Positions 34,900 through 40,610 of a DNA stretch of 64,000 bases are shown in pieces. The notes below the pieces were generated by a model. That model had not been told where the DNA came from, did no database searches, and was given only the letters and a program-made list of their open reading frames with translations. Within the stretch, counting starts at the first letter, position 1; the number at the start of each line of letters is the position of its first letter. Location of the stretch: contig JAFGIX010000022.1 of assembly GCA_016929395.1 (NCBI GenBank), positions 1 to 64,000 on the forward strand. The letters are read 5' to 3'. The position numbers and the translations under genes are program-made. This DNA is from Candidatus Zymogenus saltonus. GTDB taxonomy: Bacteria; Desulfobacterota; Zymogenia; Zymogenales; Zymogenaceae.

Positions 34900-35718
34900 T
34901 CATGCGAGGCCGAGGAGCGTCTTCGGGTTTGTCTCCGTCATGGCTTTAAAGGTCTCGTCCTTGAGTCCAAGCTCCCCCACCTCTTTTAATATCCTCGCGC
35001 GGGTCAGGAGGGGGTAGTCGCTTCCGAAGAGGACCTTTCCCCTCAGGTAGGAATCCGCCGCCTGGAAAACTCCCTTCGGGATGTGTTTCGGTCCCCAGCC
35101 CGCTATGTTGAAGTAGACGAACGGGTTTCTCCTGACCACCGCCAGGGCCTCTTCCCACCAGGGGTAGCCGAAGTGGGCGATAACAAGCTTGAGGCGCGGA
35201 AAATCGACGGCAACCTCGTCCACGAAGAGGGGACGGCAGTACTTGATCTTCGTCCCCGCGTGAAACTGCGTCCCTGTGTGGAAGAGGACCGGAACGTTCA
35301 TCTCCTGGGCGGCCTCGTAGAGGGGGTAGACCTTTTTGTCGTTGATGTCGAGCTCGTTTAGGTGGGGCAAAAGCTTCAACCCCTTGAGCTTCAGCTCTTT
35401 TATCCCCATTTCAAAATCCTTCACCGCCTTTTTCCCCTTGTTCGGGTCGGCGGAGGCGAATCCGATGAGCCTGTCCGGATACTGGGATACGGTCTTTGCC
35501 ACAAGCTCGTTGGACACCTTGTATTTGTGGGTCGTCTCGGCGTCTATGGCCACTATGACGGCCTTGTCCACCTTTGCGTCGTCCATGTCCTTCAAGGTTT
35601 GTTCGATGCTCGGCATCCCGATGTCCTTGAACATCTGCTTGTAGCCCTCCGCCATTGCCTTCGGAAAGCTCTCAATGGCCTCTTTCGTCCACAGCTGGGA
35701 ATGGGTGTCAATAATCAT
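34900..35718 (-). CDS. amidohydrolase-2 family metal-dependent hydrolase
   Basis: A 272-residue TIM-barrel hydrolase of the amidohydrolase-2 group, which includes decarboxylases and lactonases. Visible motifs are the N-terminal IIDTHSQLW, LKGLKLLPHLNEL, VLFHTGTQ, LVIAHFGYPWWEE and LFGSDYP near the C-terminus. The first motif normally reads DxHxH; here the second His is Gln, so metal binding may be altered. AAAGGAGAGG precedes the ATG on the minus strand. It is separated by about 140 bases from mobB and may be a single-gene unit. Substrate not predictable. Confidence 0.83.
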   Translation of the reverse strand: MIIDTHSQLWTKEAIESFPKAMAEGYKQMFKDIGMPSIEQTLKDMDDAKVDKAVIVAIDAETTHKYKVSNELVAKTVSQYPDRLIGFASADPNKGKKAVKDFEMGIKELKLKGLKLLPHLNELDINDKKVYPLYEAAQEMNVPVLFHTGTQFHAGTKIKYCRPLFVDEVAVDFPRLKLVIAHFGYPWWEEALAVVRRNPFVYFNIAGWGPKHIPKGVFQAADSYLRGKVLFGSDYPLLTRARILKEVGELGLKDETFKAMTETNPKTLLGLA

Positions 35719-35857: not shown

Positions 35858-36364
35858 TCAAGGATTTTTGAGAAAACGCTCCACTATCAGGTCGGCCATC
35901 TCACCGGCGTCGTCGAGGGGCATAACCGGAACGGCCGCATCGATTTCCGTGTCCGCAGCAACGGCAAAGAGCGTGTCGTCTCCCTTGCAGAGGAGATCAT
36001 CTCTCATTCCCTTTCGGAACACCTCTATCTTCGGGTGGATGTCCGACTTGTATCCCTCCGTTACTATAATGTCAATCTCGGTGGTCAGTCGATCGCGGAT
36101 CTCGGTGAGCTTCATCTCCCTTTCTACGTCCGATATTATGGCGATCTTTTCGGGCGACGAGATCAGGGTCGTGTGGGCGCCAGCCGCCTTGAGCCTGTAG
36201 CTGTCCTTTCCGGGGATGTCGATATCGAAGTTGTGAACATCGTGCTTTACGGCACATACCTTGTATCCCCTCGCCGAAAGCTCCGGGATCAGCCTTTCGA
36301 GATAGGTGGTCTTTCCGCTGTTGGAGTATCCAACCACGCTGATTATGGGGGTGTTTTTTCCCAT
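35858..36364 (-). CDS. mobB: molybdopterin-guanine dinucleotide biosynthesis protein MobB
   Basis: A 168-residue P-loop GTP-binding protein with Walker A GYSNSGKTT, then AVKHDVHNFDID and the TEIDIIVTEGYK segment typical of MobB. It assists MobA in attaching GMP to molybdopterin, a cofactor form used by formate dehydrogenases, nitrate and other Mo/W enzymes. It overlaps the end of mobA by 22 bases, so the two are one translational unit. Confidence 0.92.
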   Translation of the reverse strand: MGKNTPIISVVGYSNSGKTTYLERLIPELSARGYKVCAVKHDVHNFDIDIPGKDSYRLKAAGAHTTLISSPEKIAIISDVEREMKLTEIRDRLTTEIDIIVTEGYKSDIHPKIEVFRKGMRDDLLCKGDDTLFAVAADTEIDAAVPVMPLDDAGEMADLIVERFLKNP

Positions 36365-36966
36365 GGTGCTCTCTCCGCAAGAATCCGTCTTGCCGCCGAC
36401 AGGTCTTCGGGGTTGTTGATGTTGAAAAGGGAGAGGAGGTCCCTGTCGATTTTCCTCAAATCGGCTTCCGCTATCTCCCTCAGTCTCACATCCCCGAAAA
36501 AGGATTTTATCTGTTTTTCCCCCAGCCCTATCTGTTTCTCTATGCCCTCGATGCAGCCCTTTGAATAGGCGGCCATGAGGGGCTCGTAATTATTACCGAT
36601 AACCGGAACGGCCGCATCACATCCTTTTGCGGCATCGATGATGAATTTGACCAGCTTGGGGTTTATAAAGGGCATATCGCAGGCGCAAACGAAGACCAGA
36701 TCCTCGGCAGCGTGATGAATACCAGAATGAAGCCCGCCTAAAGCGCCCACGCCTGTGTGAATATCCTTGACCATTTTTATCGGGATATTGCCCGATTTGA
36801 GATGGGCGAAGCTCTCCAGATCGTTGGTAACCACGATGATTTCGGAGAGGATTTGTTCAATAGTCTTTATTACCCTTTCGATTATCGTGGCGCCGTCAAG
36901 AACGAGGAGGGCCTTATTCACACCCATCCGTTTGCTCTTCCCCCCCGCAAGAATTGCGCCGGAAAC
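36343..36966 (-). CDS. mobA: molybdenum cofactor guanylyltransferase MobA (start unresolved)
   Basis: MobA transfers GMP from GTP to molybdopterin. The body has KALLVLDG, VGALGGLHSGI, CACDMPFINPKL and NNYEPLMAAYS. The first in-frame ATG is at 36927, but that would begin inside the nucleotide-binding loop. Reading further upstream in the same frame gives VSGAILAGGKSKRMGVNKA, the canonical MobA N-terminus, so the real protein must start earlier. The frame stays open to a stop at 37065-37063, yet contains no ATG, GTG, TTG or CTG; only ATT or ATA codons are available. An ATG near 36968 lies one frame off. A rare start or a one-base indel would explain this. End coordinate given at the Val of VSGAILAGG. 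Confidence 0.85.
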   Translation of the reverse strand, partial: VSGAILAGGKSKRMGVNKALLVLDGATIIERVIKTIEQILSEIIVVTNDLESFAHLKSGNIPIKMVKDIHTGVGALGGLHSGIHHAAEDLVFVCACDMPFINPKLVKFIIDAAKGCDAAVPVIGNNYEPLMAAYSKGCIEGIEKQIGLGEKQIKSFFGDVRLREIAEADLRKIDRDLLSLFNINNPEDLSAARRILAERAPWEKTPP

Positions 36967-37062
36967 ATTCGCCCGAACCGCCCCTTCTGTCTTATCAGGT
37001 TTTTCAATCCTCTCTGAAGTTTTTTCTCGCCGTTTTAGAATTTTACCTATTCCGTCTATTGC

Positions 37063-37398: not shown

Positions 37399-38346
37399 TT
37401 ATTCCCCGACGGCGGCTGGATGGTGCTCCTTGAGCCAGTGGTAGTACTCGTTTTCTACCTTGCTTACCTTCGGATCCCTCTTGACCAGCAGCCCCGCGGG
37501 GAGGATCTCGCCTGTGTACGTCTTCTTTCCCGATCCGCCGAAGGTTACCGTCACCCTCCCTATCCTTTTCCCTTGCTTGTCTCCTGCAACCATTGTCGTG
37601 TTTCCCACCTCGATCGGCCTCGGAATCGGGTTGGGACGGCTTAGGGTGATTACGAGGTCGATTCCGGGGACGTTCTTGGCCAGGAGGTTTGCTTCGACCC
37701 TCTCCATCGCCAACAGCGCCACGACGAGGTCGCAGCTTCCGCGAAGCTCCTCAACCGCCTTTTTGGCCGCCCTCTCAGGGTCGGTGATGATAAAGGTATC
37801 AACATCGTGGGCTCCGGAGGCGGTCCCTCCCATGACGCCGAAAAAGCCGATCCGTTTTCCCTCCACCTCCTTTACAACCGTTGCCTTGAAGACCGGCTCC
37901 ATCGTCCCAACGGAGAGGAGGTTTGCGCTGATTGGTGTGAAGCTTGCCGATTCGGTAAGCTCCTTCAGGTAGTCGAGGCCGCCGGCGAGGTCGTTTTGCC
38001 CCACGTTTACGATGTCGTATCCTATCTCGCTCATCCCTAAGGCGGAGTACTTCGCCGAGGTCAGGTCCAGATCTTCGGTCAAGGACGAGACCCTTATCCG
38101 TTCAAAGAGGGAGTTACCCGCATCGACCACGATGACGTTCGGATAGCCGCTCTTTACGCCGTTTATCAGCGTTGCCCGCCGGGCGTACCCGCCCAGCCGC
38201 TTGTTTTCTCAGACGCAGGGGAGGACATCCCCGTAGGTGTCGCAGGAGAAAACGATCGTGACCGTGTTGCTCAGGGCCTTGACCGACAGGATAGCAATCA
38301 AGATCAGCGTCAGGGCCGTTAAACTCGTAAATATGCCCTTTTTCAT
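37399..38346 (-). CDS. exported metallophosphatase-like protein, candidate selenoprotein (in-frame UGA)
   Basis: The frame encodes a 315-residue protein if UGA at 38211-38209 is read as selenocysteine (residue 46). It starts at ATG 38346 with MKKGIFTSLTALTLILIAIL, a clear signal peptide. After it comes IVFSCDTYGDVLPCV, the UGA, then ENKRLGGYARRATLI and VIVVDAGNSLF. This is the pattern of 5'-nucleotidase/UshA-like metallophosphatases, in which I recall a PCGC-xxx-LGGLARRA region; the UGA falls on the second Cys. The later IVNVGQNDLAGGLDYL is the usual NVGNHE-like motif. A hairpin right after the UGA fits a bacterial SECIS. Without readthrough, a GTG at 38130 gives a 243-residue fragment lacking the export signal. 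It follows a lipoprotein gene on the same strand. Confidence 0.72.
38179..38201 (-). promoter_or_regulatory. SECIS-like hairpin after UGA
   Basis: On the minus-strand mRNA, CUGGGCG (38196-38190) pairs with CGCCCGG (38185-38179), seven pairs including one U-G, around a GGUA loop. The loop begins 19 bases after the UGA, inside the 16-37 base range reported for bacterial SECIS elements, and its first two bases are G. An outer AGCG/CGCU pairing (38201-38198 with 38071+100 region, i.e. 38171-38168) can extend it. Confidence 0.6.
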
Positions 38347-38499: not shown

Positions 38500-39891
38500 T
38501 CATCTGTCCGACATCCGAACCACATTTTTTACGTCCTTCAGCGGCGCGTCGATCCTGAATGGGACGAAGGCGATGCTTATCTCGTCAATTCGGCATAGGT
38601 ATGAGGCGACCTTTAGAAGCTCCCCTTCCGCGATGGGGGCGTCTGTCTTCCAGTCGGTGACCTGGAGCTTGATAACGAGCCTCTCCGGCCTTCCCACAAT
38701 AAAGACTGCGTTGTTGCAGACGTTGTTTATCAGCGGCGCCACCTGCTTGAGATCGTTATACGATTTTTCCCTCATCATCTGGCGGTGGTACGCCATGATA
38801 AAGAAGTAGTCGACACCCTCGCCGTTTTTGTCAGTCTTGAACTCGCCGATGTCCTGGGAGAACCACGCCAGGGCGAGGTCCGGCCGTATTGCGGATTCGT
38901 AGGAGAGGTTTACGGCGAACCTGAGTCGGGGATTGATCCCCCTCGCCCCCGCCATTATCCTCTTCGCCACGAGGGCAAGGCGCCTCGACTTGAAGGAAGA
39001 CCATCTCCAGAACTCGTCTGTGTACTCCCTGACGTAATATTTCGTGCCGGCGGAGTTGAGGTACGGCGATACGTATAACGACTCGGGCCTGATCTTATTC
39101 CCGTAGAGCCTCGATGCGCCGTCTCCCATCCCCTCGGCGTGCCTGAGTATAAGGTCGTCCTGAAAGAGAATCCCGTCGATGTCGTATCGGGCAAGGTCTT
39201 CGTATATATTCACGAGCCTTGTGACCTCGCGGTCGTCGAAGATGTCCACGCCTAAGGAGGGGACTATCTTTTTGCTTTCAAAATCGTAGGAGTAGAGGTT
39301 GTTCTCGCTCCTCCCGTAGACCGCGTATTTCGTGGTCATCCATGCGTAGATCGAAAGCCCGTTTGCTCTGGCTGCTGTGATCATCGGCGTCAGGGCATCG
39401 GCCACCACGGGTGCGTGCCTAGTCCTGAAGTAGACGCCGGAGTCGGCCCCCGGCTCGACAAAGGGGTAAAAGCGGTCTCCCCTGTTGTGGAAGACCCTGA
39501 CGATTACCGTGTCGGCGCCCGCCTCCCTTATCTTTGACATCTCCTCAACGAGCCCCTCCTTCGTCTTTGAGGAGAAGAGGAGCACCTGAAAGCCGACGAT
39601 CCTTTCAATATCCTTCCCCTCTTTTTCTACACCCCACTCTGTCTCCGGCTTTTTCTCTTCAGTGATGTGGAGTTCCGTGGGCGCCGTTTCAGCCGGTGCG
39701 GTCTCCGCGGGCGTCGTCTCCGATATAGCGCCCCGGCAGCCCCCCTCCGTCACATCCTTGAGGTCGTTTGTGGCGCAGCTCGATCCCAGAAAGACGAGGC
39801 TTGCTATGAGGAGAGGAAACAGCGGCCGAGCCCTTGTGTCTTTAAATCCGGATGCTCTTGGTAAATTTGTTGATATTGCCATATTTGTCAA
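38500..39891 (-). CDS. PgaB C-terminal-like glycoside hydrolase, putative lipoprotein
   Basis: A 463-residue exported protein. The N-terminus has a hydrophobic stretch ending LVFLGSSCATND, a plausible though imperfect lipobox, then a Thr/Glu/Pro-rich linker (PAETAPAETAPTE). From about residue 95 the sequence resembles the C-terminal hydrolase domain of PgaB (GH153-like): GADTVIVRVFHNRGDRFYPF, LSIYAWMTTKYAVYG, DIDGILFQDDLILR and VDYFFIMAYHRQM. PgaB deacetylates and cleaves poly-N-acetylglucosamine in the periplasm; the deacetylase half is absent here. It may trim an exopolysaccharide. It lies upstream of the UGA-containing metallophosphatase on the same strand. Confidence 0.72.
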   Translation of the reverse strand: MTNMAISTNLPRASGFKDTRARPLFPLLIASLVFLGSSCATNDLKDVTEGGCRGAISETTPAETAPAETAPTELHITEEKKPETEWGVEKEGKDIERIVGFQVLLFSSKTKEGLVEEMSKIREAGADTVIVRVFHNRGDRFYPFVEPGADSGVYFRTRHAPVVADALTPMITAARANGLSIYAWMTTKYAVYGRSENNLYSYDFESKKIVPSLGVDIFDDREVTRLVNIYEDLARYDIDGILFQDDLILRHAEGMGDGASRLYGNKIRPESLYVSPYLNSAGTKYYVREYTDEFWRWSSFKSRRLALVAKRIMAGARGINPRLRFAVNLSYESAIRPDLALAWFSQDIGEFKTDKNGEGVDYFFIMAYHRQMMREKSYNDLKQVAPLINNVCNNAVFIVGRPERLVIKLQVTDWKTDAPIAEGELLKVASYLCRIDEISIAFVPFRIDAPLKDVKNVVRMSDR

Positions 39892-39959: not shown

Positions 39960-40610
39960 CTACCTGAAATGAAACTTGAGATCGGAGAAGCTGTCTATGA
40001 TGATGTCGGCCCCCGCGTCTTTGAGGTCTTCCATCCGGCCGAAGCCGTAGGAAACCCCGCAGGAGATGACGCCCGCCGCCTTTGCCGAGAGGACGTCGTC
40101 CACGGTGTCGCCGACCATCACGGTCTTTTCCGGGGCGACGTTGAAGCTCTCGATGGTCAGGTAAAGGGGGGCGGGGTCCGGCTTCATCTTGGGGGTCGAG
40201 TCTGACCCGACTATGAGGTCTATATGGTCGGCCATACCCAAGGCGGTTACCACCCTCTCGGCCATCCTGACGAGCTTGTTTGTGACCACCGCCTTCCTCT
40301 TTTCGATGCCGGCGAGCGTCTCGATGACGCCGGGGAAGGGGACGGTAGTGTCCAGGAGGTGACTCTCGAGGTACTCGATGTAGGTCCTTATCGTCTCGTA
40401 TTTCTCCTCCTCGCTTTTGCCGGTCATGTTCTTAAATACATTTGTTATCCCGTTTCCCACAAGCTCCCTTGTCTCCGCATCGGTAAGGGCCTTCATACCG
40501 AATGACTTCAGGGTGTGGTTGATGGTCGCCTTGAGGTCGTCCTTCGAGTCCGCGAGCGTTCCGTCAAGGTCGAATATAAAGAGGTCGATTTCCCTAATGA
40601 TCTTTTCCAT
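39960..40610 (-). CDS. HAD-family phosphatase, phosphoglycolate phosphatase-like
   Basis: A 216-residue HAD hydrolase with all four motifs: FDLDGTLADS (nucleophile Asp), a Thr in VVTNK, Lys in KMKPDPAPLY and GDTVDDVLSAKAAG. The cap domain lies between motifs I and II, as in Gph-type phosphoglycolate phosphatases. Other HAD substrates (for example pyrophosphate or nucleotides) are possible. It stands about 225 bases from the divergent decarboxylase gene. Confidence 0.85.
   Translation of the reverse strand: MEKIIREIDLFIFDLDGTLADSKDDLKATINHTLKSFGMKALTDAETRELVGNGITNVFKNMTGKSEEEKYETIRTYIEYLESHLLDTTVPFPGVIETLAGIEKRKAVVTNKLVRMAERVVTALGMADHIDLIVGSDSTPKMKPDPAPLYLTIESFNVAPEKTVMVGDTVDDVLSAKAAGVISCGVSYGFGRMEDLKDAGADIIIDSFSDLKFHFR

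Follow-up and report, generated by a model that had tools for sequence, protein, structure and literature searches.

UshA-like selenoproteins have been listed since 2008, when a Global Ocean Sampling study tabulated the group "COG0737, UshA-like, CxU" with 76 sequences containing Sec and 92 containing Cys (PMC2398784); they are also found in the catalogues of 2022 (PMC9312934) and 2026 (PMC13188914). Two NCBIfam models cover such proteins, i.e., NF041198 (UshA_like_PCGU), in which a C-x-U motif follows the first metallophosphatase motif, and NF049981 (UshA-like family 2), which is haem-less and has the motif CxxU. The literature that we found assigns no function to the family: no biochemistry was found for any of its members, and literature searches on Zymogenia and on a possible link between selenocysteine and multihaem proteins yielded nothing assigning a function either.

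The window analysed here (the whole stretch of 64,000 nucleotides from Candidatus Zymogenus saltonus, contig JAFGIX010000022.1; host genome 3.76 Mb, 99.6% complete) contains a gene for a short, haem-less relative of these known UshA-like selenoproteins. Selenoproteins of this family are thus not new, given the 2008 survey, the later catalogues and the existing models, and the suggestion of the first-pass annotation that none was known has to be dropped. The best NCBIfam match of the window protein is NF041198, although its score (185.9 bits; 179-208 bits for the orthologues) is below the cut-off of 275; SoxB (TIGR04486, 61.9 bits) and NF049981 (50.0 bits, cut-off 140) come next, and Pfam gives zero matches for the protein. 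Annotation with the NF041198 model would therefore miss this clade and is likely to truncate the gene where the UGA stands. With NF041198 the window protein has in common the domain (homology over residues 12-274), the placing of the C-x-U behind the first metallophosphatase motif and the position of the SECIS element. It differs in lacking the C-terminal tetrahaem cytochrome c554-like region found in the full-length member examined, a PCGU paralogue of the same genome (contig C17; NF041198 558.5 bits, four CxxCH motifs, cytochrome c554 match). Indeed, the window clade has no CxxCH motif, whereas the haem-fused long forms have four, and it is ~200 residues shorter than they are. Further differences are an extra Cys35, Val, Ile or Ala besides Gly as the middle residue of C-x-U, and a more complete loss of the metal residues. 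With NF049981 it shares the UshA-like selenoprotein character without haem, but not the spacing of the motif.

The AF2 model of the protein (pLDDT 94.3, pTM 0.93) predicts the fold of the 5'-nucleotidase catalytic domain, as in E. coli UshA, the putative 5'-nucleotidase 3ivd and human CD73 (TM 0.81-0.85 over the query; 0.85 for E. coli UshA). In contrast to these three, the window protein lacks both the C-terminal substrate domain and most metal ligands. The metal columns were read from one MAFFT alignment of distant sequences, including two proteins from the host genome that keep their metal residues, and a pairwise alignment to 3ivd supports the reading. Six of the seven ligand positions are substituted and only the first Asp is kept: compared with the consensus, DxH became DTY, GD became GN, GNHE became GQND, the third His became Ala and GHxH retains no His. 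Of 53 family members, 0/53 have the GNHE His, 1/53 its Asn (L024), 5/53 the DxH His and 0/53 the last GHxH His. Note that E. coli UshA has Gln at this last position, and the column therefore carries less weight. The metal site is most degraded in the window clade, where the C-x-U follows the position of the missing DxH histidine by 6 to 8 residues. With almost all metal ligands and the C-terminal substrate domain lost, the protein is probably not a phosphatase. The term "metallophosphatase" in the first-pass annotation is misleading: it describes the fold, but hardly any dimetal ligand is left.

We regard it as likely that the window protein is an exported pseudo-phosphatase selenoprotein, in which Cys-x-Sec is the active site for thiol/selenol redox chemistry. 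A special case of this reading would be SoxB-related sulfur handling, with the Cys-Sec pair accepting sulfur from a partner-carried persulfide, thiosulfonate or polysulfide. SoxB is indeed the second NCBIfam match after the UshA-like selenoprotein model, for the window protein as well as for 2/3 orthologues, but this similarity to the thiosulfohydrolase is remote (62 bits, far below the cut-off of 550). Furthermore, SoxB needs its metal site, which is lost in the window protein, and SoxY was not found in the genome by a search whose control was silent as well. We consider sulfur handling of this kind conceivable but unlikely. A working metallophosphatase/5'-nucleotidase, with Sec modulating the activity or standing in for a structural Cys, would agree with the fold shared with UshA and CD73 and with the distant resemblance of its sequence to the UshA and SoxB models. 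However, a metal site reduced to its first Asp, the disappearance of the GNHE His from all 53 relatives examined and a length of 315 residues with no substrate-binding C-terminal domain make this quite improbable.

The reading of a selenol active site depends on how the in-frame UGA is decoded. The frame is open from the ATG through the TGA at residue 46 to the TAA, and the sequence from DTYGDVLPCV through ENKRLGGYARRATLI agrees with what the first-pass annotation had reported. This TGA is the only one in the 315-residue frame, and 269 codons are open 3' of it (the chance of a random open run of this length is ~1e-4, based on the local stop frequency). The protein is conserved on both sides of the UGA in several species. 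Purifying selection acts on the part 3' of the UGA (dN 0.12, dS ~2 for the window versus the homologue from the same genus), the part before it has dN ~0.10 and dS ~0.7 between the two nearest genomes, and residues 47-62 show zero amino-acid changes between these two.

The UGA is present at the same column in 4/4 genomes of the family (L011-L014; the relatives are 79, 50 and 52% identical to the window protein), and the four-genome clade has the motif SCDxxGxxxPCxU-ENK, with Val, Ile, Gly or Ala before U. In 50/50 aligned homologues this column is Sec or Cys. The Cys forms (L019, L057, L061, L063, L081, L088, L090, L094) read CGC, so that C-x-U replaces C-x-C, as the first-pass annotation had expected. 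Paralogues and members from other lineages likewise carry UGA or a Cys codon here, apart from rare exceptions. Within the phylum, Sec or Cys is thus not universal at this column, since a haem-type relative (L086, G111:C168) has PSGR instead of PCGU, with an Arg codon in place of the UGA and Ser in place of the first Cys. In the short haem-less relatives L023, L024, L026 and L030 the UGA is kept while the first Cys of the motif is replaced by Ser or Ala; the Cys-Sec pair is therefore not essential family-wide.

The four-genome clade itself is fully supported in the tree (100/100); its placement near other short forms, in a group with some short CxxU proteins, is weakly supported (93/62). A search of 395 genomes of the phylum revealed close orthologues in the window's own family only, and viral contigs contained no close relative. 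A first scan of public genome contigs gave zero matches; a second one gave two Zymogenaceae records (79 and 50% identical, named Candidatus Zymogenus and Candidatus Zymogenaceae), and as one of its two patterns had Cys at the UGA position and could not match TGA, it does not imply that the clade is confined to this family. The stretch SGAHDxDTF (residues 177-185) and Cys35 are invariant in the four-genome clade. This stretch was not seen among the other relatives read and may be a clade-specific functional site.

Sec decoding in the organism is supported by the presence of tRNA-Sec (anticodon TCA), selA (507 bits), selB (found by its C-terminal winged helix), selD (362 bits) and a formate dehydrogenase FdhA with Sec186 (contig C17). 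All four genes of selABCD, which the first-pass annotation had proposed to look for, are thus in the genome. The selD gene (L076, G000:C1:10871-11806) carries an in-frame TGA as well and therefore probably encodes a selenoprotein itself.

A hairpin follows the UGA. RNAfold of 47 nt from the UGA gives a helix of 8 bp (the first-pass annotation had counted 7, but was right about the GGUA loop and its distance of 19 nt) with -20.3 kcal/mol and z = -3.2 against shuffles. The published bSECIS model has a distance of 16-37 nt and a G in the first two loop positions (PMC13188914), and the window hairpin agrees with it in both distance and loop G. In this region Rfam gives chance matches only. Codons of the x-G-G-x-A-R stretch were compared between 59 Sec forms and 18 without Sec, all from the same phylum, with statistics that count related sequences as independent. 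The stem Ala codon is GCC in 53/53 Sec forms (2/8 forms without Sec), and the first Gly codon is GGC in 52/59 (8/18 without Sec; Fisher P = 3e-4). Among the 21 Sec forms with Leu...Arg stems, 12 combine T as third base of Leu with A as first base of Arg and 9 combine G with C, with no mixed case (P = 3e-6, without correction for common descent). Both the Leu (CTN) and the Arg changes are synonymous; the G-C version occurs in the window clade and in several further families. Pairing in the six-pair stem is seen in 89% of cells, compared with 19-46% if the partner is slid one to three bases. The hairpin is thus under selection as RNA, apart from the protein.

Taken with the UGA kept in relatives, the SECIS-like hairpin, the Sec machinery and the Cys homologues at the column bear out the selenoprotein call of the first-pass annotation. 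It had named a lack of Cys homologues, a lack of selABCD and a loss of the UGA without Cys in close relatives as arguments against itself, and none of these was found. On this comparative evidence the in-frame UGA appears to encode selenocysteine, presumably inserted at residue 46, in a putatively exported protein with a 5'-nucleotidase-like fold. That the UGA is a true stop, leaving a pseudogene or short peptide and a separate gene from the GTG at 38130, would follow the standard code and account for the 243-residue ORF beginning there; with the UGA present in four genomes, the protein conserved between UGA and GTG, the covarying hairpin, the full Sec machinery and the Cys forms at the same column, this is very improbable. 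Even less credible is a changed code reading UGA as another residue, e.g., Trp: an open frame across the UGA would by itself fit any amino acid, but homologues have Cys or Sec, not Trp, at this position, the orthologue in G003 ends at a TGA after residue 318, where similarity ends, and the genome has a tRNA-Sec whose anticodon is TCA.

Features of the selenoprotein locus in the window, in order along the reverse strand.
Feature	Position	Strand	Remarks
HAD-family hydrolase	39960..40610	(-)	first gene of conserved cluster
GHL13 / PgaB-like glycosyl-hydrolase-type protein	38500..39891	(-)	directly upstream of selenoprotein in 4/4 genomes
Short UshA-like selenoprotein CDS	37399..38346	(-)	315 residues, Sec46; ATG 38346, TAA stop at 37399
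Putative signal peptide, ~ residues 1-25	38272..38346	(-)	MKKGIFTSLTALTLILIAILSVKALS, read by eye
Cys35 codon	38242..38244	(-)	invariant in four-genome clade; absent from haem-fused paralogues
Cys44 codon, first residue of C-x-U motif	38215..38217	(-)	
UGA codon, read as selenocysteine 46	38209..38211	(-)	frame and orthologue comparison
bSECIS-like hairpin, 8 bp	38178..38197	(-)	GGUA loop at 38189-38186; folding and covariation
mobA (NTP transferase)	36343..36927	(-)	downstream of selenoprotein; true start probably upstream of listed ATG
mobB	35858..36364	(-)	
Amidohydrolase	34900..35718	(-)	last gene of conserved cluster

The window, G002 and G003 share the order HAD - GHL13/PgaB-like - selenoprotein - mobA - mobB - amidohydrolase (mobA and mobB of the latter two genomes were identified by sequence), and in G001, whose contig stops inside the selenoprotein gene, the upstream part of the cluster is kept. 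The mobA motif LAGGKSKRMG starts 5' of the first ATG (window 36927-37061), and no in-frame ATG, GTG or TTG was seen ahead of it; hence either the start of mobA is unusual or the program-made start cuts the motif. The haem-fused PCGU selenoprotein gene of the host (L044) adjoins, on G000:C17 (3211-10512), genes for an AOR-like protein (~654 aa; the name was read by eye from the N-terminal sequence) and the Sec-containing FdhA, and similar AOR-like genes adjoin the haem-fused form in G003:C40 and G002:C56. By association, the mobA/mobB neighbours together with the AOR-like and Fdh genes by the long form hint at a connection with molybdenum or tungsten enzymes. A haem gene as candidate redox partner was looked for next to the window selenoprotein gene and not found, and the electron partner of the short form is therefore a guess.

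In the redox mechanism that we propose, the hairpin just 3' of the UGA would recruit SelB, and SelB would put selenocysteine at residue 46, giving C44-x-U46. The product would have the fold of the UshA/5'-nucleotidase catalytic domain with few metal ligands and no C-terminal substrate domain, and the C-x-U pair, just past the former DxH metal motif, would be its new active centre, performing thiol/selenol redox chemistry in the periplasm. The fused haems of the relatives suggest electron transfer by analogy. In the long form electrons may pass to the fused tetrahaem domain, and the short form would use a separate electron partner instead.

The phosphatase site is degraded family-wide in the alignment, and the window clade retains hardly any of it but keeps the C-x-U; this points to redox chemistry, for which the clade offers a small haem-free test protein. 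With rather less confidence, we lean towards extending this reading to the whole UshA-like (seleno)protein family, as a retired metallophosphatase with a decayed dimetal site and the adjacent Cys/Sec pair as active centre, connected to haems in the majority of members but working alone in the Zymogenaceae clade. If this is true, the phosphatase-derived name of the family misleads about its function.
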